Source: Eunapius fragilis (lineage: Eukaryota > Porifera > Demospongiae > Spongillida > Spongillidae). From it: a stretch of DNA of 64,000 nt. The translations under genes were made by a program, and so were the position numbers. The stretch lies in contig OY811991.1 in assembly GCA_963681505.1 (NCBI GenBank), positions 1,992,671 through 2,056,670 on the forward strand, written 5' to 3'. A model generated the notes under the pieces. That model did no database searches, had not been told where the DNA came from, and saw nothing but the letters and a program-made list of their open reading frames with translations. How positions within the stretch are numbered: position 1 is the stretch's first letter; every line of letters begins with the position of its first letter. This document shows, piece by piece, positions 93 to 60,700 of the stretch.

Positions 93-19674
<19,582 letters not shown>

Positions 19675-19750: not shown

Positions 19751-20200
19751 CTCACTGATATCGTGAGGCTAGAAGCCACTGGTCAAATGCAGAGGATTTT
19801 CTTTCATCCTCCTGGCCGGTTCTAAGTTCCTTTTCCTCACATAGGTGGATGGGTAAAATTCAATGATTCTTATAAGTACCAAGGGGCTCATAGTTTTCAG
19901 GACATGGTTATACATACACGTCAACTTTGACGCTCCTTCCTGGATATCTTGGAAAATACGCAGGCCCCTGGGACGGGCGGGGTACTAGCATCAAGCATTG
20001 TCTCCCCAGACCGTTTTATGCGGTGCGGCGCGGCCGTCCCTTTTTTTTTTTGCTCGAGCTCCTTTTATGAAGTCACACACGAATGGTAGGCAGTTGATAC
20101 CAGTAAGAAACTAGTTGGGTATGGCTCGACTACTGACAGAATACGCGGGTGCCCAGCCTAGAATGAACTTCCTGCTTGGCCTTAACTTTAATATTAGGAA
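19751..20200. other. Intergenic spacer BLTP2 to caspase-like gene
   Basis: About 450 bp holding the presumed promoter of the caspase-like gene. It contains a GC-rich patch (20020-20040) and a T-run. No TATA box or repeat stands out. Confidence 0.5.
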
Positions 20201-22671
20201 ATGGTCTGGGGCGGGTTACAACACACATACACTGACCACGTACGAATGGATTGGCTTTTTAGTAAATTAAGTACTCTGTGGCCGCGGAATCGTTGGTGGG
20301 ATAGAAGACAGGAATCGCCCCGGCACAGTGAGCGAAGCAGTACGCCGTCAAACGATGATATCGAAGCTGATCGAGTACCACATACCGCTCCAGTACAGAC
20401 CACACATCGAGATCATTCCACTACCACTGACCCTAGCGCCATAGTTGCGGAATCAAATTCAAATGACCAGACCATCTATCGGTACTCGAGTGGTCGTACA
20501 TACGCTTTGCTCACGGGTAATTGTGGGGGCGGTGCCAGTGGTGGGTCTCTTTTGCAGTTCGTACATACAGACTTGAAGCTTTTACAGGATGCCCTTGGTT
20601 GTTGCAACGCCAAAGTGTACAATCCTTGTTTGGACAAGGGCTCACCTTTCGTCACTAGAAGTGAACTTTTTGAGTATTTGGAGAAAGCAAAAGAGTATGT
20701 TGTGGAGAATAAAATTTCATATTTTATGTTCTATTTCACCGGACACGGGGACAACACAGGTATCATCTTGTCAGGTGACAGAAGAGACAAGGCTGAGTAC
20801 GAAGAAATCATTTACTCCATTAGCTCCCTTGATGTCCCAAAGGTACTCATATTTGACTGCTGCCGGCTCAAGACAGACAAGAAGACATCATTAACAGATG
20901 CAACACTTCCTGCAGACTGCCATGTTGTTTTTGCATGCATGGATGACTCCGAGGCATGGGGATGCCCCAAAACTGGAAGTTACTTTACACACAAACTAGC
21001 AAATGCATTGAAAGCCTACTACCAGCGTGGACTGTCGCTCCCTGATATCATTACTCAAGCAGTACATGGTACAAGGGAACTGTGTAATGCTTTGAACATG
21101 GGAGTGCTTGACATACAGAATCCTATGATACTAACGACAATAGAAGGACAATTCTGTGCTATGAAAGGTAAATCATTTGTATTGATTGAATATGGACATC
21201 AATTCCTGCCTCTCATATTATCTTGAGATAGATAGATGATAACTAAAATAAAAGGCAAAGTTAATGTCTTCAAAGTCACTGAGCGTTTTTTTTTTTTTCA
21301 GATCAGGGAAAAAACAATGGAGACATAACACAACTAGGTGCTGGTATTAATGTCCTAATTATTCACGCCCCTGACCCATTGTGTGCCAGTGACTGTGTTC
21401 CAGCGAAAGACGCTGCAAAGGACATGAGAATTAAACATGAAAAATCATCTGTCATCAGATTAGCTTTTAGCCTTGAGCAACGTGGCTTTTCAGTTTTAAC
21501 TGAACTCGATGCCAACCCTGACAACATGGTGGGGTGGTACATCAGTCGCATTGAGAAATCCCGCTTTGTCCTTCTAGTGTATTCCCCTGCACTGGACCAC
21601 ATATTTAGCAGCAATTTTCAATCTTCAGACCTGCAAGTCAATCTTATTCGTATCTGCTACAATACTATTTGCAACACTTTACAGCAAAACCCTGACACAG
21701 ATAAATTTATTCCAATAGTTATAGACTCAGCATATGCAAATGTCGGGTCATTCTTCAGCAAACCTGTATATTATGCTGTGCAAGAGGGTGGTGAGGGAAG
21801 TGGTGCAAAGTACAAGTATGAATCCCTGATCTGTAAGATGGCGGCCATTGATGTTGCAACTGCCATTAAACCCAATTTTGTAAAAAGCAACACCACCACC
21901 ACACCAGCTTCAGAGGGAGGGATAAATCCTGAAGCAGACCCTGGTACCTCTGATGCAGCTACACTGGAGCCAGCCATGGAGGTCCTAGGTACACAAGCCA
22001 CTTCACAGTCAAACAGCACAGCCTTTCCTGTTGCCTGCTGTTTGGAACCAGCTGTCTGCTGCCCACAGGGAGTGCCTCCAATACCATCAATGTCCACACT
22101 GCAGGTTGGTCAAGGAGTGCCTCCACTGGACAGGCAGGTTGGTCAAGGAATGCCTCCACTGGACAGACAGGTTGGTCAAGGAGTACCTCCACTGGACAGG
22201 CTGGTTGATCAAGGAGTGCCTCCACTGGACAGACAGGTTGGTCAAGGAGTACCTCCACTGGACAGGCAAGTTGGTCAAGAAGTGCCTCCACTGGACAGAC
22301 AGGTTGGTCAAGGAGTGCCTCCACTGGACAGGCAGGTTGGTCAAAGAGTACCTCCACTGGACAGACAGGTTGGTCAAGGAGTGCCTCCACTGGACAGGCA
22401 GGTTGGTCAAGAAGTTCTAAGGTGGTTGAGCGAGCATATCAGAGAATGGAAGCTGTTTGCTAGATACTTGAAGTGTATTAGAACAGGAGACATAAACAGG
22501 TGTGCTGATGCTGGGTTATCCAGTCAACAACAGTGCTTTGAAATGCTAAAGATCTGGCATGCCAGGAACCCATCAGCAACCTACAAGCACATACTGGAAG
22601 CACTTGAAATCAGTCGGCTTAATAAAATATTGATTCATGACTTCAGTTCTAAAATTAATTCAATAGGTTAG
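20201..22671 (+). CDS. Caspase-like / SEFIR / death-domain protein
   Basis: Two exons, 20201-21167 (phase 1) and 21302-22671 (TAG), giving 778 aa; ATG at 20246 is an alternative start. Residues about 95-320 form a C14 caspase-like fold: the strand YALLTGN, the histidine motif FTGHGD (His182) and the cysteine motif IFDCCR (Cys221), closer to metacaspase/paracaspase patterns than to QACRG. Residues about 338-480 look like a SEFIR/TIR-type adaptor domain: VLIIHAPDP, then WYISRIEKSRFVLLVYSP and FIPIVID. Residues about 590-694 are some nine tandem 11-aa repeats (VGQGVPPLDRQ). Residues about 695-765 look like a death domain (IREWKLFARYL ... MLKIW ... ILEAL). The expected role is death or immune signalling, from receptor-type interaction to proteolysis. 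No signal peptide or membrane segment is seen. Unspliced, exon 1 reads 19 more codons to a stop at 21226. Confidence 0.85.
22102..22415 (+). repeat. Coding minisatellite, 33 bp = 11 aa
   Basis: About nine and a half in-frame copies in the linker between the SEFIR-like and death domains of the caspase-like protein. All copies keep the frame; variation is mostly Q/R/E at one position and silent changes. Confidence 0.95.
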
Positions 22672-23888
22672 CTACAAATATGATGTCCATTCACTGATGT
22701 TGAATCTCATGAAAGTGTAATATCCTCATGTCTGTACATTGCTTCACCTACTTGCAAGTCACTATATCAAGCTCGCATACCTAATTACATATTGTGGAAA
22801 GTTATAGAAAAAACTCTGTAGTCCCACAAATTTGTGATCTCCTTTACAATAGCTATAATCATTGGCACACTCTGTTTACTGGTACTTGGTATTCAAGGCA
22901 AGCATATAGTGCTTTGCAACATTGTGCACTATATCTTTATCTACAATCTTATCAACAAGAAATGGTCTACATTCTAGTACGAATGAGGATAATTTAAATT
23001 CACACAACAGCACTGAATAAATAAGTTCACATAATGCAGTGGGTTACTGTTTGGTTTGGGCAGAGACCCCACTGAAAACAAGTTCTGGGCATTACCCAAA
23101 CCTACTACGTAGCTGAATTTTATGCCAAGACAGGTTTTCATCAGGTATACCATGCTTCTCTGCACCTCTCAAATAATAGGGTAATGCGTTGGATTACGTG
23201 TGATAATATTGACTACGACAACAAAAGAAAAATAGTAGAATCAGTACCGTGTAAGAAAACTACAATTTCTAGAAACTCAAAATACGATCACAATTTCACT
23301 GGCATGAGCTGTATTCTGATCCATTACTGAAATTCTAGGTCACAATTTGTATAAGGGCACCAATTTTATGTATGATATTGAAGTACATTGCAGAGATATG
23401 TTTTAAAGGAAACTAGTTGGGGTGGTTCTTGCTACTGTGCGTCCTGCTGTTTGCTCACAAGCAGGGCTCTTGCGGGTCAACTTTATCACCTGCTACTAAA
23501 ATGAAATCAAGTAAATTAAAGTTTTACTGATGGAACTTCTTGTATTCATTTGAGTTGCAGGCAATAATTTGGCAGGAAGTATTGCCCATGTTTGCCAGCC
23601 ATAAGAGATTCACGATATCTTTGGCAGCGCGTAATTAAAGAAGAGGATAGCAGACCTTCACAGCGACTAACTTATATGAACTTGAAAACATTGAATCATG
23701 AGTACATCCATTATTTGAAACAAGGTACACATACAACACATAACATATGGTTGTAAAAAAAACCTGTGGAATGAGTACCAATTATCAGAATACTATAATG
23801 GATCACTGCAAATGGATAAGAAATACAATAGGCACGAAAAATAAAAGAAAGAAAGAAAAAAAACACACACACACATACACACCCGTCA
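22672..23888. other. Intergenic region between convergent genes
   Basis: This holds the 3' flanks of two convergent genes. An AATAAA at 23016-23021 could serve the caspase-like gene. No coding exon, RNA gene or notable repeat was seen. Confidence 0.5.
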
Positions 23889-26800
23889 TTATTTCTTCCT
23901 CGGCCTTCCCCTCCCCCTTCTCCCTCCTCTCCTCCCTCTACAACTAGTGCACGCACCTAGACTGTACGTCAGGAGGTAAGCAGGGTACGCCTTCTCATGG
24001 TCATAGATCACGTACACATCAGTGTCCCCAGTGTTCCCCCTCACGCTGTCATACAGCTGGTCTTCAAACGGCCCACTAGGCCTCACAGGAGGTTTCTTCA
24101 AGTTGGGGTCTGGAGGGCTGTAGTAAGACACGCCCGTCAGCACGCAGGCAAGGAACATCTGGTGCAGGACCTCCTCTCCCTCCTTCATGGCGTAAGAGTA
24201 GCTGTGGGAGTAGCTGGCGTTGACAGCAAAGTACGTCCCAGTACCCCAGTTCCCCATGGCCGAGTACCGAAAGTCAAACCCTTGCTCTGATCGGTATATC
24301 TTCTCTGGACAGGTGACCCTGGTGCCGTGGAACAGCTCCTTCTCGTTCACCTCTCCACCGTTCTTCTCCGCCATCCTCTGCTTGGCAAAGACGTACCTGT
24401 CCCACAGCCACTGGTTCTGCACCCTCTCCAACCTCGTCACCTGCGCATGACCCAAGGTCTGGTGCACCAGGGAGACAACCTTGACCCACTCGGGGGTCGT
24501 CGGGGGTACGACCTTCAGCTCAATCTTGGTCATCTGTGGGTCCCACCAGCTGGGGTACTTGGATGAGCTGCCCGCCAACAGGGCCATCTGCTGTTCCACT
24601 TTTGTCGCCAGGTTCTCCACGTAACCACGAGCACCCGTAAGCGACACCTTACCGTCCAAGATGGCGGCGCGCACAAAGTGCTGAGAAGCCCACATCTTCA
24701 CGGTCTGCTGGAGGGCGGGGCCAGCGAGCGGCTGGAGCTCCTTCCCCACGACCAACGTGACCAGCCTAGCCTCCAGGAGGCCACGCACCTCCTGGAACGC
24801 TTCGTCCATGTTTGCCTCCACCCCGCACACTTCAAGCATCAGGTCAGAGTCGCAAGACACGGCGTCCCTCCTCGGTAAGCTACGTCGTTCCAACTGCAGG
24901 CTCGCATGGGAGACGAGGTCCTCGGACCGCAGCTGTGCAAAGTCGACGCTACACTTCCTCCCTAGGATGGTCAGGTGGACCCGCTCGGGCCCCGCCTGCT
25001 GATGCTGCTGGTAGCGCCCAAACGCGTCCTCAAGGGTACCCGCGTCGTCCAAAGAGAAAGGGCACGTCCCCCCATTGTCCGCTCCATAGTACCAGCAAGG
25101 GACGAGGTCGCTGCAGCGTACCGCCCTTTGGGTACCCGTCTCCACGCCAATCTGAAGCATGGCAGCAAAGTCGATCACAAAGTGCTTAGCGTTGATGGTG
25201 ACGGTGACCCTCCCGCCGGGGGAGGCCTGGAATTCCCTCGTCAGCACGGCGCAGACCTCAGGGTCGTAGCGACTGTACTGGCCGTGGTCGCTCAGCCAGA
25301 GCCACTCGTAGCACTGGACGGGGGCAGAGCCTGGGACGGTCAGGTAGTCAACAAAACCAGTGACCTGGTCACTACCGGAGCAGCCTGCCATTCTGAAGAT
25401 CTCCCTCAGGGGTTTGGGCACCCCAAACTGGTTCAGCAGGGAGAATGCTAGCTCGCGTCTGGTCTGCAGGCATTCCACGGCGTCCAACGCCTCTCTGGAG
25501 AGGAGGGATGGCAGGTGGATGCAGGGGAGGGAGAAGCGTCTCGTCCCCATCCTCTTGTCGCCTACTTCCGCATCAATGATGTCGCCGTTCTCCAGGCCGA
25601 GGTCCAGCACTGACTTCTCTGGATCAAGGGGGCAGCCGTCAAATGTGAACCTTACCTTGGAGAGTGGGGTGCCAATACTGTTGGCAAAAGCACACATAGC
25701 CTTGGAGATGGGTTCAGACTAAAGGAAAGACCAAACGAGTGAGGCCCAATGCATCCTCCAATACCCCCCCCCCCCCCCTGCCGAATTATTCTTCACACCT
25801 TGTTTATGCTGTAATCAACTGAAGTTGAGGAACTTCGTATGCTGAAAAGGCAAATAGGGTTCTGTTCATCTTCAACCTCACAGATGACCAACTCATCTTT
25901 CTGGGGCTCAGGAATTGTATCAGTGATAACTGCATCTGTTATGTGAGTTGTAAAATGACCACTTCACACAGAATCACATGCCGGCAGATCACAGATCAAG
26001 AGTGGACCATGCACACATATACAGTGTCTGTACTACTAAGAGGCTTAGGATAATAGCAACATCTCTCAACTGTAGTGCCCATGTGTACGCATATGTATAG
26101 CTTTTTATTTACAAGTACTGTCCCATGCTGGTCCACTGTATGATAATGCAATCCTTTTGGAACATTGCAAAAAATAGTTCAAACCCACCCACTATGTCAA
26201 CAGTGGTGAGGCTGCTGTTCACCACACTTGAGAGCAGGTCCAGAGTACTTGTTCCGTGAGACAGAAAAACTTGCCTCGGGTCACAGCCTATATCCGAAGC
26301 CAGTAATGCGCAAACTTCAAGGAGGGACATATCCTGCAAAAGTGAGTCACCAAGTGTGCATCCTCACAGTACACATGTTCCGACAAAGCACACATCACCA
26401 CCACACCTAAACATGCACCATCACATAGTTGTAGATCAGTACAGAGCTAAAAAAATTAACACCCTCCACACTTATGAGCAAGGGGGGGGGGGGGGGGGGG
26501 GGTCAAAAATAAAGGTGGTTGACACCATCCTAAGATGTTGGTCAGGTGCACACGCCCATTCACCCGACCACAATCCTCAATGACCAATGACCTTACTTAT
26601 GCCCTCCAGATTTACCACATCCAATGAATAATTAGCAATTGTGGCGATGAGTGCATGAGCTTACGCAACAGATTTCCACATTACAGTACATGTGTTATAT
26701 CAAGCCACTTAGTACAAGTCTGATTGGCCCCATTCCTCTTGCATCATGTACTTGCTCATACAAAGAGGCCTGATGCTCAAGGAGCTACTTTGCTGACAGC

Positions 26801-28643
26801 ATGGGCTCTAAATAGAATATACAGATTTAGCATTTGCCTTAAACCCGGCAGCCATCCATCACCTCGCACCTCAATTTTAGATGCTGCAGTAAGTTTATTT
26901 CATCCCTTGTTGGCAATAGATGTTAAAGATGCCCCCCATTGTGCAAATCAACTCGACCATGTGACAATAGTCCCACCCACTATACACATAAATAATGCTG
27001 AATATCCTATCTTTGCATGCACTGGACACCTATGAACACTACAAACAATTCAATCACTATGTTGCTAGTGCAAGCTAAAGCGCTTTATTTATTTAAAGAT
27101 TTGACATTTTCATTTATGACCCCCCCCCCTCCCCTTCCCTCTAACTTTGATTTATTTCTATATATCCACCTGAAAAAAGAATAGCATATTTGTGATGCTC
27201 TCAATGAGCTCTACAAAGTTTGTTTATGGTGTCTTCCACTTTCTTTTTAGCTCCTTCCCCCTCCTTCCAGTCATGAATACAAAAATACGTGCACCATGTT
27301 CTTTCTTTGGGAAAAGGGAATGAATGGAGTGGGAGGGATAAGAAAACACTACATTTAAACCTGCATACACTACTTGCTAATTAGAGCAAGTCCTTTTTTT
27401 AAACTTAAGAATAAAGGTCAAAATTGTCAAGTGAATGGAAGTATGATGTACAACACATGGACATCACAAAAACTATAAGTCAGCCCTGATATGCATACCT
27501 GGGTAACAGAGTACTTGTGTATCTGCCCGCGAAGCCTCACCCTCAAGTTGAAGGGTTGTTCTGACCCTGCAGGCACCTGTTGGAATGTGTTATCGGACCC
27601 CACAGTGTCCAGATGTGAATCGTCATCCCTCTTACAGCTGACAGTCGGAGAACGCAGCATGCTGATGAGAGCATCTGCTTTCCTATCACAGGGAGATGAC
27701 AGAGCCCTGATGTCACAACATCAGAACCACGTACCTGTGTGCACATGCACAGCACACAGATACAAATATAATGCACAAGGAAACATACAAACATAAAGAC
27801 ACAGATGGATTGCACACACCAATAACAAAATTCTCATAGGCACTGATCTATTTGTGCACAACAGAGCACAGAGCCCTTTTTTACAACACACCAAGCAAAT
27901 TGTCCACTTACAGCAAAACTGGCAAGCTCTTTTTTTGGGCACTGGTGGAAGGTATGCACAGAGAGTGTGGTTGTGAACGTGGAGGGGTTGACGGTGGTTG
28001 GAGAGGTGGTGATGGTGGGTATAGAAGTGGTGATGGTGGGTATAGAGGTGGTGATGATGGAGGAGAGTCCACTGCAGCCACACAGCCACCACCATCCATG
28101 TCACTACTGAAGCACGCAGCAGTGGTGATGGATAAGGAAGATCAGGGGAGAGGACTTTACCACAGGCAACTGATTGTACACAATCTTAACCCACAACCCT
28201 ATTAAGTCTACACATTGTGCGCAGTAGTGTACTCAAACATGTACATGTACACACGCCATACGTGCTCTGTGGGGACAGAGACGCTACGTTGGGCTGGAAG
28301 GCTAGAGGGGAAGGAGGGGGGGTGAGCCGGTGAGGCTGCAATCATAGCGCAATGGTTGTAATAAAAATCTCACACAGCTACCTAGCATTGGATAGTGTGC
28401 GCCATATAAAACATGGCTATTAACGAACAGCTGCATGTCTTATACCGCAAGTCGTTTAGGTCACCCAGTCGTTACACACCTCTCATCGCTGCTCTCTTTG
28501 GCACTATTTCTCACTGTCGTCGCACGTTCCTTTGACTTTTCCTTCTCCTTTGCCCTTCTAGTGGCCTGAGAGAGCGCATCTAACTTTGCAGCGTCAATGC
28601 ATATTCTTTTCGTGTTGCCAAAGGTGAATAACTCTTCGTCCAT
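23889..28643 (-). CDS. NIP45-like SUMO-like domains fused to WWE, PARP and AT-hook
   Basis: Five minus-strand exons: 28643-28480, 27682-27499, 26333-26189, 25935-25799, 25718-23889 (TAA), 819 aa, phases consistent. The N-terminus (MDEELFTFGNTK) and two SUMO-like domains (about 100-165, and 211-265 with VRFTFDGCPLD ... NGDIIDAEV) match the NIP45 paralogue across the 105-bp gap. The last exon then runs on with no intron into two WWE-like domains (about 345-412 and 413-489), a region that might be KH-like, and a PARP catalytic domain (about 602-797): ELFHGT with His674, GTGTYFAVNASYS with Tyr706, and Val778 in VYVIYD where PARP1 has the catalytic Glu. This predicts mono-ADP-ribosylation or an inactive ADP-ribose reader. 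The tail is basic with an AT-hook-like RGRGRPRKK, suggesting a nuclear, DNA-associated protein. I know of no NIP45-PARP fusion. Confidence 0.87.
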
Positions 28644-28748: not shown

Positions 28749-29175
28749 ATGGAGGATGAGCTCTTTACTTTCAAAAACACCAAGAAGCTGACGTTTGGAC
28801 GCGGCGCAGCAGTCGATGGACGCAAAGCTACCTTAACACGTGATTCCAGCTCCAGCAGCGACGATGAAGGACAAGGTCGTAAGAGGCAGGGTGCTCGCCG
28901 AACAAACCCTGGGAAAAATATCGCCCTCGATCCGCGTCCCAACTCGCCGATAAATTTAGACGACAGTGACATTCCGTGCGTGCAGGTTTCTTTAGCTTAT
29001 TCTTACCATGCTCAGCCTCATGGCTATTTTCCTTTGCAGTGAGCCGGTTAAGTCCTCTACTGCCGAGAGTCTCTCTGACTCTGAGTCCCCTTCACCGCCA
29101 TTGCTTCTCGTATCAAAGCTCGCCACATCCACAAAATTGGCCAGGTAAATATCATAAGAAGTACTAATTTCTATA

Positions 29176-29230
<55 letters not shown>

Positions 29231-30008
29231 CGTGCGTGTGCGTGTGTGTGTGTGTGTGTCTTTTAAAAAAGTTGCATTGTTAAACAAAACCGGTACTCGC
29301 TAAGTATTACCTAGAAGATGGGACCTTTTACTATAGCTACAAGATTGTAGGAATAATGTTACAGTAATGTTCTATCAGTAGGACTATGTCACATGATGTC
29401 CTGGTACCTATTATCATGTAAAGCGTTGACAGTAACCTTTGTAGGTAGTGTTTCATGTGATGTCTTCATGGTGTGCCATGTGACATCCTAGAGGTGTGTC
29501 GTGTGATGTCTGGTAGTCTTGGTGTTGCTTCACGGCTTTTTGTGTTAGAGGCACCAACTGCTGTCGGAATACTTGGTATGATTCCCGAGTAAGTTTACCT
29601 TGTTGGTAAGCTAATGGAAGGAGAGAGGAAGGAAGGGTGAATACAAAGAAAGCTAACTTCCAGGTGTATCCCCATGATTTCTGAAAGGCAGCATGGATGC
29701 ATTATGTTCCTTGGTGGTGGGCCATATAATTTGCGCCACCTTTCCTCCCTCCTCCCTGTGTGCACGCACAATCAGGGCAGATGAGGCCTTGAACCAGCTG
29801 AAATGCAGGCACGCCCCTGAGGCCCATTTGGAGGGAGTCATCCCGTTAAGTTCCACCAGCACACAGCCAGATGCCTCTGCTGCCATAGTGAATGATGATG
29901 AGTTCATCCTGAGAGTGAGGTGCAGAGGGAAAATCCACAAGTACCCTGTCCGAAGTGTACGAGAGAAGGGAATGGGGAATTGTAGTTGAGGATGTACATG
30001 CATTGAAA

Positions 30009-30043
<35 letters not shown>

Positions 30044-30075
30044 TGTGTGTCTGTGTGTGTGTGTGTGTGTCTGTC

Positions 30076-30133
<58 letters not shown>

Positions 30134-30821
30134 TGTGTGCATGCTTGGTCTCCCTCTGCAGACAGACATAGGTGCCCAGGTTTGTCACAGCATGGCGTCA
30201 GAGATGGGCTGCAACTGGGACCAGATCCTGCTCTCGCACCGAACAGTGACCATGGATGCTTTCCACACACTGGGGGAAGCTGGGATCACTGTAGGTGACA
30301 TTGTCGGTGAGATATGCCTGTACGTGTGCTGTGTGTTCAGGGTGCTTTTGATTGCCACACAAACCTATGCACACGTTTCTTCGCACCTGCACTCATAACG
30401 TGCAACTCTTTGCACATGTAACATGCCTGCATCTAAACATGTACGCATGCATGGACCAATCAGATGCTGTTGTTGTGGAAGAGCCTGTCAAACAGCTGTC
30501 TGACAACAGCCCGGAGAAGCCAACCGATGGAAACGGATCAATAACTGTAACGTTCCGTACTGTCAACAAGAACGTAACATACCAGCTGGAAAATGTATTC
30601 TATTCGCTAGTTTTTTTTTTTTTTTTTTAACCCTACTGGTCATCTGCTCTTCCTTGTAGTGTGAGCCCTTGATGAAGGCTATGGAGACCTTTGCCGCTTC
30701 CCTTGGTATTTCTATGTCCAAATTGCGCTTCACATTTGACGGAGAGCCGATCGATGCAGAGCAGACAGCGGCCTACCTTGAGCTGCAAGACGATGACGTC
30801 ATTGATGTACGTGTTGCTTAG
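28749..30821 (+). CDS. NFATC2IP: NFATC2IP / NIP45, tandem SUMO-like domain protein
   Basis: Six exons: 28749-28985, 29044-29144, 29776-29956, 30162-30306, 30464-30594, 30660-30821 (TAG), 318 aa. NIP45 and its yeast relatives Esc2/Rad60 act in SUMO-dependent genome maintenance; human NIP45 also binds NFAT. The first SUMO-like domain (from FILRVRCRGKIHKYP to GITVGDIVDAVVV) and the last (SKLRFTFDGEPID ... DDDVIDVRV) match the human protein in order and spacing. A short acidic/serine segment and PINLDDSD, a possible SUMO-interacting type motif, lie near the N-terminus. The second acceptor (29044) and the donor at 29957 (GTACGA) were chosen by phase and are the least certain. UBE2G1 starts 174 bp downstream. 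Confidence 0.88.
29184..29260. repeat. (GT)n microsatellite
   Basis: GT dinucleotide tract with a few GC interruptions in a NFATC2IP intron. Confidence 0.95.
30010..30133. repeat. (GT)n microsatellite
   Basis: About 120 bp of GT with rare CT interruptions in the short NFATC2IP intron 29957-30161. Confidence 0.95.
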
Positions 30822-30994: not shown

Positions 30995-33870
30995 ATGGCG
31001 AGTCCAGGTCTAGACCAGGGCGCCTTGCTTTTAAGAAGACAGCTCATGGGTAAGGAAAGCGTGTCTTCTTGATGTATTGTGTAGCGTGGCCCCTCCGCCC
31101 ACCGTATCTCTGCTCGGAGTTTTTATTCAACCATATTTGTCGACCCGACATTCCAATTACTGCACACTCTACCGTTCATATCGTTGTGATAGAGCTTCAA
31201 AAGAGACCGGTGGAAGGTTTCTCTGCTGGCCTAGTCGACGACAATGACATGTACACATGGGAAGTACTCATTATCGGGCCACCGGACACTCACTAGTATC
31301 CTTACATATCGAAATGCACATTTTTACATGTCTGGCAAGTATTACCACCGCGGTGGCTACGAGGGCCAATTTTTTAAAAACGTCAAACTTTACTTTTTCA
31401 CACGTTTTTGGTTTTTAACCGTAACTACTTTCAGCGAAGGGGGTTATTTCAAGGCTCACCTGATATTCCCCAAGGAGTACCCACAACGACCTCCAAAGAT
31501 GAAGTTCGTCTCGGAGATATGGCACCCCAATGGTAAGCCCACACCTCCCCCCCCCCATAATCATTAAAACACAATTGTCACTCCAAACCCAGTTGAAAAG
31601 AATGGCGATGTGTGCATATCCATTCTTCATGATCCGGGAGAGGACAAGTGGGGATACGAGAAGGCCGAAGAGCGTTGGCTGCCTGTTCACACGGTGGAGA
31701 CCATCCTCATCAGTGTCATTTCCATGCTGGCCGACCCCAACGATCAGAGCCCAGCCAATGTTGATGCAGCGGTAGGTGTGGTTGTAACGTGTGTTTGCCA
31801 AACTATTATGGATGTGCCGATTCCATACCTGTGGTCCTACCATCACCACCGCCGCTTATGATAGGATGTTGTATTCTCACATTCTGGTTACTCAAATATT
31901 GTGGCATGCACTGTGTGGTCCAGGGTAATGCATACAGACACCTAATCAGTTGGCATTTAATGGCATTTACTGAATGTGTTGTGTGCGTGATAACAGGTCA
32001 TGAATCTTTCATTAGAAAGTGGGGAATAAATATTGAATTTTTAATAATTATCTCACATTATAAGTTTTCATCTTTACACATTGGCTTGTAGTATTATGCA
32101 AATGTGTATTGGACGCACTTTTTTGATTTCTTATTTATGGCCTGGGTAAAGAGCGTTTCTATTATTTCTTAATGTTATGTCCAGAAATTATCTGGCATTG
32201 CCATTGATATAATATCCTTTCTCTGTACTCTTTTTAAGCAGTAATAGATGTTACAATTTTCTAGTTGCAAATGTATATATTGAACTCAATGTTGTGAATA
32301 CAATACCCTAAATCTAGTGCAATGCACAGACATGCCTGCTTCCATGGCAACAGAAATTACAAGTTAAAATGAAAATGTTTAACACCCGGTTTATGAAACA
32401 CAAGAATTATTTTGGGGATATTCAGAATCCTTAAATGGAGCTGCTTGGTTTTGTTTGAACATCTGCTAAATTAGGCGTTTGATAGCTAGAGCGTACTTAC
32501 GACTGCTAAGGAAAGAATCCGCTGGTTTACACAAGCCCTCTAAAGTCAAACAACCCTGGAAATTGGGCCTTATAACTGATACACATTTTTCCTAGGCTTA
32601 CTCTGGTTGATCAGACCTAGTATTGATAATAGAAAGCATGTCCTTGCAGCTGTTCTTTTCATTTGACTTGTCGTATTAAGTAATGAAGCGTATTGCAGAC
32701 TAAGGCGAAGGTGATTGACAGCCTAAGTGCGGGATATACATTGGTAGTGCTAGGAAGTCCTCGGGAGCCTCATCAACTGCTGCAGCAATCATGGCAGACA
32801 CCATATTTGTATACTCTACAAGTTCCACTTGTTTACAGTTTATTGCTCAGCAAAAAGATGCTCTCTATATCCCAGCAGAGTGGAAAAAATTTAGAATTGC
32901 TGCAAAATTTACATTCATTGTGCCTAAATGGCTTCTTGACTGGGGCCAGGGAGCAGAGAGCACAAATGGGTGCAGTGTTTCTGAATGGCAGCTCCTGTAT
33001 TGGTCCTGTATTGGTCCTGCATTGCTCGTGCATTGGTCCCGTATTGGTCCTGTGTTGGTCCTCCATTGCTCCTGCATTGGTCCCATATTGGTCCTGTATT
33101 GGTCCTGTGTTGGTCTTGTGTTGGTTCTGCATTGCTCCTGTATTGGTCCTGCATTGGTCCCGTATTGGTCCTGTATTGGTCCTGCATTGTTCTTGTATTC
33201 ATCCTGTGTTGGTCCTGCATTGTTCTTGTATTCGTCCTGTGTTGGTCCTGTATTGGTCCTGCCTTGTTCTTGCTCTTGTATAGCTATGAGATACCAATAA
33301 AATGCTCCGAGAGCTGACAAATTAGCTTTTTAAAAAGAGCACTTTGAAAACTTTGGCCACCATAAAAACGTAATAAGGTGGCTTGGCATGTTATTGTACC
33401 ACAGTACAGTGGTAGATAGCCTTATGAGTCCTGCATTTCTATATTGATGCACTGAGAGTGGGCTATCATCGAGAGATATTTTGCATAGGCAATGAATGAA
33501 ATGAGGGAGTTCGTTTTATTTTCCCCAAAAAAATCTTGTCGTAAATCCACTAGTATGTTGGTTTGATAATCCAATCATTTTTTTGAATTTAGAATTTCAA
33601 GCAATTGCAAAACCTCAAACAGAAACCACTTATCAATTTGTGTTTTTCAGGCAGTGCATTCATTTGGTTCCAATAGCAATTGTAAATATAACTTCCACTG
33701 ATATGAAATTTAAGTTCAAAGCTGTCACGTGCAGTGTCACTTTTTCCCCTCCCAACAAAGGTGTGCCATTTTCCCTTCCCTCCATGTAGAAGGAGTGGCG
33801 GGAAGACTACAATGGAGAGTTCAGAAGGAGAGTGATGAGATGTGTTCGGTTGAGTCAAGACATGCTATAG
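30995..33870 (+). CDS. UBE2G1: Ubiquitin-conjugating enzyme E2 G1
   Basis: E2 enzyme that accepts ubiquitin from E1 on its active cysteine and passes it to substrates with an E3. Five exons: 30995-31049, 31193-31295, 31435-31532, 31593-31771, 33790-33870 (TAG), 171 aa, against about 170 in human UBE2G1. Collinear blocks include [46 protein letters not shown], the active-site segment [35 protein letters not shown] and the end [11 protein letters not shown]. The G1-specific acidic insert after the active cysteine is present. The last intron (2 kb) contains a 12-bp minisatellite. All splice phases agree. Confidence 0.97.
32995..33275. repeat. 12-bp minisatellite (TATTGGTCCTGT)
   Basis: About 23 imperfect copies in the last UBE2G1 intron. 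Both strands read open across it only because the unit is a multiple of three. Confidence 0.9.
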
Positions 33871-37055: not shown

Positions 37056-37518
37056 TATCTACCGCGTAAAAGGTTGATGTTTGCGGAAATATTTTCAACG
37101 AAAATTCGATCCAAATATGTCATCTTGCATTAATACTAAATTTGCGAAGTAAATTTCAATATGAACAACAAAAAAACTGAAGTTGGAGATATTATATATG
37201 CGCGGGCTTTACCCGCCTGTCCATGCACCTGTACCTTTCCTACTGAAACAGGCATAAAAGCAAGCAGCTGGAATAATTTTCATCCAGCTATTTGCACCAT
37301 ATTTGATATATAACGTTGTATTTTTAATTCAGTTCAGTAAATGTGTTGACACCGCGACCATATCCCCCCCTTTTCCTGGTGCTAAACTTATATATGCTAC
37401 TGGCAGCTTGCTTTATTAGTTTTCAGCACTATAAAGCTGTAGCATGATGACATGAAGTTAATTGTGGACATTAAATGTGGTCAACACCTTATACGTGTTT
37501 ACATTTTAGCATTCTTTG

Positions 37519-38382
37519 ATGGACGTGACGTATACAGTGGCGCTTAAAGCTCCCCATGGTACCCGGGCACAATTCAAGGAAACAGCGCACAACGGTTGGC
37601 AGTACATCGATGACATCAACGACTGGCTGTCATCCCAACTGGATGCCGACCGCTGGTCTGGCTGGATGCTTTACAACGACCAACCACCGGAAGGGGCGGC
37701 GATGTTAGAAGGCGGTCACTGCAAGGGGATTGTTGCCTGGACCGAGGAGAAGATAGGATGGATGATCCACTCCGTTCCAAAGTGGCCCGACTCGTTCGGC
37801 AAAGGATCCGTCTCGAAACTCCGACCTGGCGAGTGCGTGTACGGGCAATCGTTTGTTTGGTTGACCATCCCTGTGCACTTAAAGGGCGACATTCTTGACC
37901 ATATCCGGCTCATGCAGTCGCATGTGTACGAGGACACGGAATCTCAGCGCAGGCTAAGGCAGCGCACCCCCACAGCCGACAAAATGCTGCAAGTCCTCAA
38001 GCTGTCGGAAAATGTGTTTCATATCGCCAAGCATTCCAAATGGGGGAAGGACCTATTTGAAGACGGCATTGTCCCCGTTTTCGGGGGAACTTGGATAACT
38101 GAAACGTGGTCCCGACCAGGTCAGCTTCCGACTGGAAGAGTGGGTCGCATTTTAAGTGTGCGTTGGGCGTCACCCCACTCGTCTTCACCAATTGCGTATA
38201 CCGAAGAAGATGATCACTCCAAGTGGGCAATCACCCGCAAATTGAGGGACCGCTGCTCCTATGTTGGGGACATCAACGCCATGGAGTCCCAGTTCCATCG
38301 TGGGGGAGGAGGCGTCGTGATAGAAGACTCTAGTTTATGGAAGGCTCTAAAAAGTCTTGTAACAAAAGAAACTGTCGTATAA
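37519..38382 (+). CDS. DNASE2: DNase II-like endonuclease
   Basis: Acid, divalent-metal-independent endonuclease family that degrades DNA in lysosomes. Landmarks in order: MLYNDQPPEG, the first HxK motif GGHCKGIV (His67), IHSVPKWP, YGQSFVWL, KWGKDLFEDG, the second catalytic motif EDDHSKWAI (His233), then CSYVGDINAMESQFHRGGGG and LWKALKSLV. Both active histidines and their lysines are present, so it should be active. From ATG 37519 the protein is 287 aa and lacks the signal peptide and first residues of secreted family members. An acceptor (TTTTAG) ends at 37509, so an upstream exon probably supplies them. I could not find that exon; a 5' exon ending at the GTGAGT donor at 36424 is possible. 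The coding part after 37510 has no intron. Confidence 0.9.
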   Translation: MDVTYTVALKAPHGTRAQFKETAHNGWQYIDDINDWLSSQLDADRWSGWMLYNDQPPEGAAMLEGGHCKGIVAWTEEKIGWMIHSVPKWPDSFGKGSVSKLRPGECVYGQSFVWLTIPVHLKGDILDHIRLMQSHVYEDTESQRRLRQRTPTADKMLQVLKLSENVFHIAKHSKWGKDLFEDGIVPVFGGTWITETWSRPGQLPTGRVGRILSVRWASPHSSSPIAYTEEDDHSKWAITRKLRDRCSYVGDINAMESQFHRGGGGVVIEDSSLWKALKSLVTKETVV

Positions 38383-54700: not shown

Positions 54701-57700
54701 TTGTTGCTTCATTACTCCTTGGGTTCTCAGTTAATCACACCTCTTCATTGCCTCCCCACTGCCTACTTTTCTCCCTTTTAATCTCACCCCCCCCTCCTCT
54801 TTCGGCTGTGTGATGTTTCTAGCATACTAACTTGCAAACAAACTTCTCATTAGCTGCCACTATATATTTTACACATCTCCCTTCCCCCCCTCTCTCTCCA
54901 TAGCTGGAAAACGAGACACACTCTGCCATGAAGACCCAATATGAGAGCCTCAAACAGATACTGAAGGTGAACCTGAGTAGCTTATGACAGTCCAAATTAA
55001 AGGCATTCCCACAAAAATGGTTTGGAGGTGAACAATGAAATCATATTGTACCTGCTATCTGTATAAATAACTTTTTAACCGTATTTATGGGTACAAATAT
55101 GTTATGTCATCTGAATTCCTTGTGGCCCCCAAGAGAAATGAATATGCACTGTTGGTGTTCCTTCCAAGGGGCAGTATTCCCTTTACTGGTGCTGTGAATA
55201 CTGCCCTCCTTCCTGGGGGTCTCTCCTCCCACCTCCATCATGTGGTATCAGTGTGCATACTGGTCAGCAGCTTTCAGGGTAGCTTAGTGCACATCTGTTG
55301 TGTGTGTTGTGTGGGTTTACTTAGCTCTTATTGTCTCCCTTGTCTTGCTGCCAGGGTCTGGAGAGCAGGTTAGAAGGGGCGGAGTCCACAAACAGGACGT
55401 TAGTGAACACTGAAGCCAATGTGAAGGCGGAGCTTCAGGTGAGCTCCACTTCTGATTGGTGCGTTTATAACTGCGTGTTGTTTTTAGGATGTGATACGAC
55501 GGCTGGAGGATGCCATTCATGACCGTGACACACTTCAGAAGAAAATGGAGGAAGAGAAGCAAGCCAGCACACAGCAAGCTGTAAATGATAGAAAGGTATG
55601 GATGCATGTACATGCACATATATGTGTCATGTGTGTATGTACACGTTGTGTCATGCGTGTATGTACACGTTGTGTCATGTGTGTACATGCACATACATGT
55701 ATATGTGTCATGCGTGTATGTACACGTTGTGTCATGCGTGTATGTACACGTTGTGTCATGTGTGTATGTACACGTTGTGCCATGTGTGTATGTACATGTT
55801 GTGTCATGGGTGTATGTACACGTTGTGTCATGTGTGTATGACACATGCACATACGTAGTATGTCTTGCATGTAATTGTATGCATACGTGAATTCAAAATG
55901 TTTTTCATTTTTTTGTGTAATGTCAGAGATATTGTAGTTTTACTCCTTAGTGAGATTGAAGGTCTTATTCATGTACTGCATGTGTCGAAATCCCAGTTAC
56001 TGATTATGCCTGGCAAAATTCAATGATTTTGCATGTACTATTCATTATCTATGGTGATCCCACCTTCATTATCTATGGTGATCCCACCTTCATTATCTAT
56101 GGTGATCCCACCTTCATTCTCTATGGTGATCCCACCTTCATTCTCTATGGTGATCCCACCTTCATTGTCTATGGTGATCCCACCTTCATTATCTATGGTG
56201 ATCCCACCTTCATTCTCTATGGTGATCCCACCTTCATTCTCTATGGTGATCCCACCTTCATTCTCTATGGTGATCCCACCTTCATTCTTTATGGTGATCC
56301 CACCTTCATTCTCTATGGTGATCCCACCTTCATTCTCTATGGTGATCCCACCTTCATTCTCTATGGTGATCCCACCTTCATTCTCTATGGTGATCCCACC
56401 TTCATTCTCTATGGTGATCCCACCTTCATTCTCTATGGTGATCCCACCTTCATTCTCTATGGTGATCCCACCTTCATTCTTTATGGTGATCCCACCTTCA
56501 TTATCTATGGTGATCCCACATTCATTCTCTATGGTGATCCCACCTTCATTCTCTATGGTGATCCCACCTTCATTCTCTATGGTGATCCCACCTTCATTCT
56601 CTATGGTGATCCCACCTTCATTCTTTATGGTGATCCCACCTTCATTATCTATGGTGATCCCACCTTCATTATCTATGGTGATCCCACCTTCATTATCTAT
56701 GGTGATCCCACCTTCATTCTCTATGGTGATCCCACCTTCATTCTCTATGGTGATCCCACCTTCATTATCTATGGTGATCCCACCTTCATTATCTATGGTG
56801 ATCCCACCTTCATTCTCTATGGTGATCCCACCTTCATTCTCTATGGTGATCCCACCTTCATTCTCCCACTGCCATATATTCCTTTCTTATCAGGCAATAG
56901 CCACGCTAACTTCTGCCAAGGACATGCTGGAATCACGGTTGCAGCAACTACAGCAGCAGACTAGCACCATTCTACCTGGAAGGTGTGTGTTCTCTGAGCA
57001 TTGATGGTGGGGATACCTGGGCATAGCATGAATACACAGGGATGGTGGGGATACCTGGGCATAGCATGAGCACACAGGGATGGTGGGGATACCTGGGCAT
57101 AGCATGAGCACACAGGGATGGTGGGGATACCTGGGCATAACATGAACACACAGGGATGGTGGGGATACCTGGGCTTAGCATGAGCACACAGGGATGGTGG
57201 GGATACCTGGGCATAACATGAGCACACAGGGATGGTGGGGATACCTGGGCATAACATGAGCACACAGGGATGGTGGGGATACCTGGGCATAGCATGAGCA
57301 CACAGGGATGGTGGGGATACCTGGGCATAGCATGAACACACAGGGATGGTGGGGATACCTGGGCATAGCATGAACACACAGGGATGGTGGGGATACCTGG
57401 GCATAGCATGAGCACACAGGGATGGTGGGGATACCTGGGCTTAGCATGAGCACACAGGGATGGTGGGGATACCTGGGCATAACATGAACACACAGGGATG
57501 GTGGGGATACCTGGGCATAGCATGAACACACAGGGATGGTGGGGATACCTGGGCATAGCATGAACACACAGGGATGGTGGGGATACCTGGTCATAGCATG
57601 AACACACAGGGATGGTGGGGATACCTGGGCTTAGCATGAGCACACAGGGATGGTGGGGATACCGGGGGATGGTGGGGATACCTGGGCATAGCATGAGCTC

Positions 57701-60700
57701 ACAGGGATGGTGGGGATACCTGGGCATAACATGAGCACACAGGGATGGTGGGGATACCTGGGGATGGTGGGGATACCTGGGCATAGCATGAACACACAGG
57801 GATGGTGGGGATACCTGGGCATAGCATGAACACACAGGGATGGTGGGGATACCTGGGCATAACATGAGCACACAGGGATGGTGGGGATACCTGGGCATAG
57901 CATGAACACACAGGGATGGTGGGGATACCTGGGCTTAGCATGAGCTCACAGGGATGGTGGGGATACCTGGGCATAACATGAACACACAGGGATGGTGGGG
58001 ATACCTGGGCATAACATGAACACACAGGGATGGTGGGGATACCTGGGGATAGCATGAGCACACAGGGATGGTGGGGATACCTGGGCATAACATGAACACA
58101 CAGGGATGGTGGGGATACCTGGGGATAGCATGAGCACACAGGGATGGTGGGGATACCTGGGCTTAGCATGAACACACAGGGATGGTGGGGATACTTGGGC
58201 ATAACATGAACACACAGGGATGGTGTGGATACCTGGGCATAACATGAACACACAGGGATGGTGGGGATACCTGGGGATAGCATGAGCACACAGGGATGGT
58301 GGGGATACCTGGGCATAACATGAACACACAGGGATGGTGGGGATACCTGGGCATAGCATGAACACACAGGGATGGTGGGGATACCTGGGCATAACATGAA
58401 CACACAGGGATGGTGGGGATACCTGGGGATAGCATGAGCACACAGGGATGGTGGGGATACCTGAACACACTTGCAAGGATAATTCCCATGCCACTGTGTT
58501 TGGAAGCCATATTCAGTGTACCCATTCTGCTGAGATTCAAGACAACTTGCTTAAGTACTTCAGAGAAGAAAGAAAATCAATTACCCATGAGTGCATGCTA
58601 GTAATTTGCTTGCACCAAGTAGCCCTGCTTGTGTAACTGGAGCAGAAGTGGCGAAGTTTGTGTCAAGTAATCAAATCACATGGTAGAACTACAATGTATT
58701 TTACTAATGGTCTGTATCATTTTATTTTATTTGTGAAATAGCTTTTTTCTGATTTTTCCAGTTAAAAGGACTGGGGACAATGTTTGCATGAGCCCAGCCA
58801 TGCACACATGCACTGTGGCTGTTTCTATAGCAGCAGGGCAAGCTCTTGTGCAGTGTTTTTAATCATGATATCTGGGTGTGCTGCTAACTTTTGCTAAAAA
58901 GTTTGGGGTGGATGATTATAGCAGCACATCTGGTAGCATGCTGTGGGTTTAGGGAACATCGAGATGTACCATTCATTCCTCTTCAAAGGGACTCGTCAGA
59001 GGCACAGATTGACAAGCTCGTTGCTGAAGTCTCGTCTCTCAAATCCCAGCTGTCGTCGGCTTTGCACATGGTTGAAGACACCCAAGAGAAGTCCAGACGA
59101 GCAGAGAGCCAATGTAAAATGGTAATAAATCTGTTTGCAGAAGTCAGATGATGGACCTGGTTGAATGGGCATGGTATATGTATGTGGCTGCACACATGGT
59201 AAAATAAGCAGCCTACATGTATGTGCACATGATGTGTACAGTAGCCACAGTGGCTTCTGCCCTATACACATAGCCACAGTGGCTTTTCCCCTATACACAG
59301 GATGAGTCAAGGCTAAAAGATCAGGTCAAGTCGCTTCAGGGGAAATTGAATGCTGTATGTTTGTCATATGTTTTGTGTTCCTGGGGTGTTTTATATGTGG
59401 TGTGGTTTTGTGTTCCTGGGTTGTTTATATGTGGTGTGGTTTTGTGTTCCTGGGATGTTTATATGTGGTGTGGTTTTGTGTTCCTGGAGTGTTTATATGT
59501 GGTGTAGTTTTGTGTTCCTGGGGTGTTTATGTGTGGTGTGGTTTTGTGTTCCTGGGGTGTTTATATGTGGTATGGTTTTGTGTTCCTGGGGTGTTTATAT
59601 GTGGTGTGGTTTTGTGTTCCTGGGATGTTTATATGTGGTGTGGTTTTGTGTTCCTGGGATGTTTATATGTGGTGTGGTTTTGTGTTCCTGGAGTGTCTAT
59701 ATGTGGTGTAGTTTTGTGTTCCTGGGGTGTTTATATGTGGTGTGGTTTTGTGTTCCTGGGATGTTTATATGTGGTGTGGTTTTGTGTTCCTGGGGTGTTT
59801 ATATGTGGTGTGGTTTTGTGTTCCTGGGGTGGTTTTATGTGGTGTGGTTTTGTGTTCCTGGGGTGTTTATATGTGTTGTGGTTTTGTGTTCCTGGGGTGT
59901 TTATATGTGGTGTGGTTTTGTGTTCCTGGGGTGTTTATATGTGGTGTGGTTTTGTGTTCCTGGGGTGTTTATATGTGTTGTGGTTTCTGCCACTGCTTGT
60001 ACTACCTGCAATCTGGTGATGGTCACCCCTTGATAGGCCTTGGCAAAAGCTGATGAACAGACAGAAAAGTTCTTTGAGTTGCAGCGAAACAAGAGGCAGC
60101 TGGAACAGGAAAACAGTTCTCTGAAGGTGGCTGTCTCGAATACCGAAGTGAGCTTAAAGATGTGACGTGGGCACACTGTAGTCGTATGGTGAAGAAGCTT
60201 ACTTACCTCGTAGTTTATGCATGATGAGACCTGTTATCATTTGTGTGTTGCATTACTATCCTCCGTGAAGAGCTTGAACAGGAGCTTACAGGCAAAGCTG
60301 TCAAAGTCCATAGAAGAGGCTTCAAAGCTTGATAGGGTTAGGAAGGAGTTTGAAGCCATGGAGAAAGAGGTGGCAACTATGTCTGTGGCCAGAAATGTAA
60401 GTGTTGCATAAAAATGATTAGTTTGAAAAGTAACATTGTGCTGTCAGCAATTTTTAAGTGCCTTGAGGACTGCAGAGGCAGAGAAGGAGAAACTGCAGAT
60501 CGCTCTAAGCGAATTGGAGAGCAGTTTGCAGAATTGCAAAAAGAGAAGCGAAGCACAGGAACTGGTAAGATTGGCATGGTACAGTAACCTTTCAAGTTAG
60601 CCCCTGTGGCCTAATGGTTAAGGCACTGGTCTTCTAAACCAGGGATTGTGGGTTCGAGTCCCACCTGGGGTAGCTGAATTTTTTTTTCCTTTCACGTGGT

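Follow-up and report, generated by a model that had tools for sequence, protein, structure and literature searches.

Does the minus strand of the 64,000-nucleotide stretch of Eunapius fragilis DNA studied here (contig OY811991.1, positions 1,992,671 to 2,056,670; the window) encode one protein that joins the SUMO-like domains (SLDs) of NIP45 to WWE domains and a PARP catalytic domain, as originally predicted? The window lies on a contig, labelled C21 below, of a 219-Mb genome to which all genome-wide counts refer; seven exon-level Wnt matches, apparently at three loci, mark this genome as that of an animal. The exon chain, coordinates and domain order that had been proposed held throughout: at 28643-23889 (minus strand) six exons whose borders are all GT-AG splice in frame and predict an 884-residue protein, in which a polar N-terminus is followed by SLD1, SLD2, a 9-residue linker, a region with no assigned domain, tandem WWE domains and PARP (Table 1). 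We regard this NIP45-WWE-PARP fusion as very probably a single gene, judging from its sequence. It appears to be one of two head-to-head NIP45 copies; in the last exon of this copy, the C-terminal half of a PARP14-like gene of the RRM class has been joined on in frame.

The single-gene reading is well supported by the sequence at the join itself. The exon is open across it, the stop codon of the neighbouring paralogue falls at fusion residue D329, and what the RRM-class relatives have upstream is missing from the PARP half. Because the join lies inside one exon and at two domain boundaries, two separate genes are unlikely, and because the stretch from SLD2 to PARP contains no stop, any mRNA from the NIP45 promoter with a complete exon 6 would encode the fusion. 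The poly(A) signals AATAAA and ATTAAA were absent from the 1300 nt 3′ of the fusion stop.

The hidden Markov models proposed earlier as a check, those for Rad60-SLD, WWE and PARP, all matched the last exon above their Pfam cut-offs. The Rad60-SLD match covers SLD2 (E = 8e-8, 32.4 bits against a cut-off of 23.8). SLD1, whose coding sequence an intron interrupts, was missed by the six-frame genome search with Rad60-SLD; its best solved structure was SLD1 of human NFATC2IP/NIP45 (2l76), at E = 0.036 with a single-sequence query and at 7.8e-6 with a profile from both window copies (runner-up 0.034). For SLD2, SUMO proteins ranked first in both the single-sequence and the profile search, and NFATC2IP was not seen among the best 60 of 157 and the best 60 of 166 structure matches. 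SLD2 was dropped as a NIP45 marker because SUMO proteins outrank NFATC2IP in these searches, and SLD1 was used in its place. According to the paper that defined the RENi (Rad60-Esc2-NIP45) family, the second domain is expected to resemble SUMO most (PMC549199). As in RENi proteins, the fusion has a tandem pair of SUMO-like domains, a polar low-complexity N-terminus (our visual judgement of the translation), an SLD2 that does not end in diglycine (the fusion reads IDAEVGDKR at this point, the paralogue IDVRVA-stop) and an aligned Asp in SLD2. It departs from the family definition, in which the SUMO-like domains are C-terminal (PMC549199), by the 556 residues that follow SLD2, whereas the neighbouring paralogue conforms to it. 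We assign the SLDs to the NIP45 type on the best structure match of SLD1 and the Rad60-SLD match of SLD2.

Rad60-SLD matches numbered 124 genome-wide, many of them in regular tandem series, which we infer to be organized as in polyubiquitin genes. One match on contig C17 has a PARP match some 9 kb away; it was considered as a second SLD/PARP neighbourhood and rejected, the frame being an ordinary ubiquitin with a tail. This tail is presumably ribosomal S27a-like.

The WWE match in the last exon (E = 3.8e-18) falls in two stretches. The second domain is weaker, and on its own still lies above the cut-off (E = 4.3e-5), so that both of the WWE-like domains described earlier are retained. WWE1 found the WWE domains of DTX1 and PARP11 as its best solved structures, and the same search with WWE2 gave no significant match. 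Deltex (DTX1) resembles the fusion in its tandem WWE domains and in being the best match of WWE1, but no ubiquitin-ligase domain was found in the fusion, and the fusion's WWE2 is weak. The PARP match (E = 1.5e-17, 64.2 bits against a cut-off of 26.7) had PARP14 as its nearest solved structure (7.5e-28) and PARP14, PARP12 and PARP15 as its best set. The catalytic domain therefore belongs with clade 3, the PARPs of PARP14/PARP10 type, which is defined by closeness to PARP7/10-15. Alignment to PARP14 identified H739, Y771 and V843 as the triad, that is, His and Tyr with a third residue other than Glu. An H-Y-E triad marks poly-ADP-ribosyltransferases and H-Y-I/L/Y mono-ADP-ribosyltransferases (PMC9940457). 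As far as alignment can tell, the H-Y-V triad is as expected of the latter, and the earlier suggestion that the protein may write ADP-ribose, with which the triad is in keeping, is narrowed to mono-ADP-ribosylation. A structure prediction for the last exon alone gave an unusable model (mean predicted local distance difference test score 35.8, predicted template modelling score 0.21).

The origin of the PARP half was traced by comparing 18 loci (L001, L021-L037), 14 of which hold an open reading frame (ORF) similar to the fusion. Homology to RRM-class ORFs begins at fusion residue 338 for L025 and 335 for L021; for L022 BLAST begins at residue 399 and the multiple alignment reaches the common HLP motif. 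This region, residues 338-412, has no Pfam match. Eight ORFs were scanned with Pfam. Three of them (L021, L022, L025) have RRM and four (L026, L029, L030, L031) a macrodomain, L024 has neither of these, and no Rad60-SLD match was found in any of the eight; KH-like matches in L025 and L031 stayed under the cut-off. L021 and L025 are RRM-WWE-PARP proteins with one Pfam WWE each, against two in the fusion, and L022 is RRM-PARP with no Pfam WWE match. The RRM and weakly KH-like upstream sequence of these relatives is missing from the fusion, which has two SUMO-like domains in place of the RRM part.

A tree was built from the fusion together with 13 ORFs (14 rows in all), with L022 entered alone since L022 and L023 are the same protein. 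One branch (99/100) separates nine other PARPs from a side on which the fusion stands with the three RRM-class rows and with L028, a long-branched outgroup; the tree gives no firm order within this side. In amino acids the PARP half is 56% identical to its relatives, and the best catalytic-region identity to the fusion among the 13 ORFs was 61% (L022). With no closer donor copy among them, the join is not obviously recent. Of the 38 exon-level PARP matches genome-wide, seven are on C21, including the fusion, and L022 and L023 lie on this contig about 150 kb away. These two (C21:1857000-1873500) are 923-residue RRM-PARP ORFs with identical protein, on one strand with 7.7 kb between them; either they result from tandem duplication in the very recent past or one locus is duplicated in the assembly. 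A search of prokaryote genomes with the last exon returned 11 stretches that fit a pattern and no confirmed relative. Taken together, the sequence comparisons argue that NIP45 replaced the RRM part of an RRM-class PARP14-like gene.

Both ends of the fusion differ from their relatives mostly at third codon positions. Between the SLD1-SLD2 regions of fusion and paralogue 62% of third positions differ, against 51 and 36% of first and second positions; for PARP the values are 56% against 33 and 28% with L022, and 63% against 33 and 30% with L025. This excess fits purifying selection on both ends. Third-position G+C in the fusion rises from 0.48 (exons 1-5) through 0.62 (NIP45 part of exon 6) to 0.77-0.79 (WWE-PARP part; 25559-23961, minus strand). 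Since six measured PARP relatives have values of only 0.35-0.52, the high WWE-PARP value was not simply inherited from their class.

The ordinary NIP45 paralogue, which the earlier description did not mention, starts on the opposite strand, and the interval between the two start codons may serve as a shared promoter. Paralogue and fusion have a common six-exon layout and agree in predicted intron phases (2,2,0,1,0). This agreement is not fully independent evidence because the paralogue exon ends were placed partly by comparison with the fusion. With a generic matrix, three of the five donors predicted in the paralogue have low scores, which makes these ends less certain. The N-termini are alike (MDEELFTFGNTKR in the fusion, MEDELFTFKNTKK in the paralogue), and 63 of 162 aligned SLD1-SLD2 residues are identical (39%). 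A genome search with the paralogue protein, in which best candidates were taken exon by exon, gave eight matches, six in the paralogue and two in the fusion, and none at other loci. Directly 3′ of the ordinary copy lies a ubiquitin-conjugating enzyme (E2) frame (31235-31567, plus strand; Pfam UQ_con 6.3e-10).

The C-terminal end of the fusion is less clear. An AT-hook-like tail had been described, and RGRPRKK is indeed in frame; base-shuffled tails yield RGRP rarely (a fraction of 0.00065 of 20000 shuffles). The tail has no Pfam match. A candidate alternative intron may remove it: the donor at 23956 scores 3.4, where the five donors of the fusion span 1.8-4.4, the acceptor ending at 23806 is pyrimidine-rich, and splicing would give a different, hydrophobic C-terminus. 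The other PARP ORFs have no basic tail, and 13 of them stop no more than 9 residues past the last conserved motif; L029, overlooked by the end pattern, has a similar ending. Because RGRPRKK may be spliced out, the tail is doubtful as a DNA-binding part.

What could such a protein do? Human NIP45 binds UBC9 via SLD2, an interaction abolished by D394R, and has been proposed to be a specialized SUMO E3 (PMC10497417), and in both NIP45 and Esc2 the SUMO-like domains apparently attach to the back side of the SUMO E2 (PMC12687455). Like that of human NIP45, SLD2 of the fusion would dock on the back of UBC9. Docking would place a mono-ADP-ribosyltransferase at SUMOylation sites, the WWE domains would anchor the fusion on ADP-ribosylated targets, and the SUMO machinery or SUMO targets would become mono-ADP-ribosylated. 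Residue D302 of the fusion (FTFDG) aligns with an Asp present in both SUMO2 and Smt3, and this fits the proposed SUMO link. For gene and mechanism jointly, a UBC9-docked mono-ADP-ribosyltransferase with possible ADP-ribose readers, we see an even chance on the present sequence comparisons; the docking and transferase steps on their own are put forward tentatively, at somewhat under even odds. The nuclear location and the role in DNA repair or antiviral defense that had been suggested may apply as well.

Several points weigh against this UBC9-docked transferase. D302 was equated with D394 of human NIP45 on our assumption that the latter lies at FFFDG. The WWE part is just 21% identical to L022, and in this poorly aligned part the contrast between codon positions is small (74% at position 3 against 61 and 57%). 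Met332 in the linker, in frame at the join with the context AGG ATG G, could act as an internal start. The third triad residue, Val, is outside the I/L/Y set of mono-ADP-ribosyltransferases (PMC9940457). PARP14's own WWE was reported not to bind poly(ADP-ribose) (PMC10450202), and reading of ADP-ribose by the fusion WWE domains is consequently not assured. Finally, SLD2 of fission-yeast Rad60 is thought to act independently of the E2 too (PMC2946365).

By analogy, the SLDs might instead be bait for SUMO-attacking parasites or viruses, with a PARP14-like effector attached, as in an immune integrated decoy. Plant NLR receptors carry integrated decoys. The PARP part does come from a large family, the convergent neighboring frames contain a caspase, a Death domain and a TIR/SEFIR-like stretch under the cut-off, and PARP14-type genes have been described as antiviral and repeatedly duplicated, also in sponges (PMC13224862, PMC4245714). 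The retained Asp at the UBC9-contact position, however, fits a working binder equally, and we consider a decoy unlikely. To the same degree we doubt that the fusion is a decaying by-product, or that its PARP half is inactive and serves binding only. It is known from one species, but its halves have diverged far (39 and 56% identity) and yet are fully open with third-position changes commonest, the 61% identity of the best donor-like ORF speaks for a join that is not obviously recent, and the triad His and Tyr are retained. Two genes sharing one exon, NIP45 from exons 1-6 and PARP from its own mRNA beginning at Met332, are improbable: although that Met is suitably placed, the SLD2-PARP stretch has no stop, the RRM-class relatives reach far upstream with their RRM domains, and a PARP-only gene would require a new promoter within coding sequence. 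An assembly artefact linking unrelated sequences is hardly credible, for although the join is known from a single assembly and third-position G+C shifts near it, the join is in frame within an exon, leads from the SLD2 end to the conserved start of PARP homology over a 9-residue linker, and lies in a window without any run of at least 5 N.

Compared with described proteins, the fusion would combine domains of known families in a new way. PARP6/8, PARP4-like proteins and PARP10 with UBCc, UBA, RWD or UIM likewise combine PARP with a module of a ubiquitin-like pathway; those modules are E2-like or ubiquitin-related, and a tandem SUMO-like NIP45 module is not described in the available parts of these sources (PMC4245714, PMC10450202). 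In the sponge Amphimedon queenslandica six PARP14-like proteins were reported, of which every one has macrodomains and several also have WWE or RRM (PMC4245714); the main text of that paper contains neither the word "SUMO" nor the word "fusion". Among the open-licence papers that our searches listed, none showed by title or abstract opening a NIP45 or SUMO-like domain fused to PARP.

Table 1. Positions of the fusion gene, its parts and the adjoining NIP45 paralogue in the window.
Feature	Position	Strand	Remarks
Fusion exon 1	28643-28480	-	start codon 28643-28641; N-terminus MDEELFTFGNTKR; phase 2 at end
Fusion exon 2	28106-27912	-	polar/proline-rich low-complexity N-terminal region; phase 2 at end
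Fusion exon 3	27682-27499	-	beginning of SLD1; phase 0 at end
Fusion exon 4	26333-26189	-	bulk of SLD1; phase 1 at end
Fusion exon 5	25935-25799	-	end of SLD1, inter-SLD linker, beginning of SLD2; phase 0 at end
Fusion exon 6	25718-23889	-	609 open codons: second half of SLD2, two WWE, PARP
SLD2 part of exon 6	25718-25560	-	residues 276-328, with Asp302 in FTFDG; Rad60-SLD match, paralogue alignment
Linker DKRMGTRRF	25559-25533	-	residues 329-337; residue 329 aligns with paralogue stop codon
Region with no assigned domain	25532-25308	-	residues 338-412; conserved HLP motif; homology to RRM-class PARP ORFs begins here
WWE domain 1	25307-25116	-	residues 413-476; Pfam PF02825
WWE domain 2, weaker	25097-24927	-	residues 483-539; Pfam, over cut-off
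PARP catalytic domain	24491-23961	-	residues 685-861; triad His739-Tyr771-Val843
Basic tail with RGRPRKK, AT-hook-like	23963-23892	-	in frame; intronic read-through possible
Candidate alternative intron, 151 nt	23956-23806	-	donor TAG/GTGCGT, acceptor TTTGCAG; removes basic tail
Interval between divergent start codons	28644-28748		105 bp
Ordinary NIP45 paralogue	28749-30821	+	six predicted exons, 316 aa; ends right after SLD2
Paralogue predicted exons	28749-28975, 29040-29144, 29776-29956, 30162-30306, 30464-30594, 30660-30821	+	

Convergent to the fusion, the plus-strand frames 20198-21223 and 21286-22668 are probably one gene (20198-22668); they contain a caspase (Pfam 1.8e-10), a Death domain (1.8e-6), a TIR_2/SEFIR-like stretch under the cut-off and, around DRQVGQGVPPL, a series of near-identical repeats. 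Elsewhere in the window are a DNase II frame (37510-38379, plus strand; Pfam 5.5e-39) and an EF-hand frame (6735-7238, minus strand; Pfam down to 7.5e-12). The minus-strand frames 4480-5220 and 7315-7725 have EIMATTAE.YMNNPFWVQK in common, which suggests a local duplication. Several frames are open through the long minisatellite-like repeats at 55960-58550 (for example NEGGITIE, CPGIPTIPVCSCYAQVSPPSL).

To our knowledge, SUMO and ADP-ribose signaling are carried out by separate proteins in DNA repair and antiviral defense. It is conceivable, though we think it rather unlikely, that here a SUMO E2 cofactor has a mono-ADP-ribosyltransferase and ADP-ribose readers of its own, so that one protein writes SUMOylation and ADP-ribosylation at the same sites, and it may be an antiviral effector with an integrated SUMO-pathway bait. 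As a natural fusion it predicts a direct link from UBC9 to a mono-ADP-ribosyltransferase, for which the head-to-head ordinary copy, which would retain the ancestral NIP45 job, is a natural control. For the expanded PARP family, the exchange of an RRM part for SLD1-SLD2 would provide a clean case of domain exchange.

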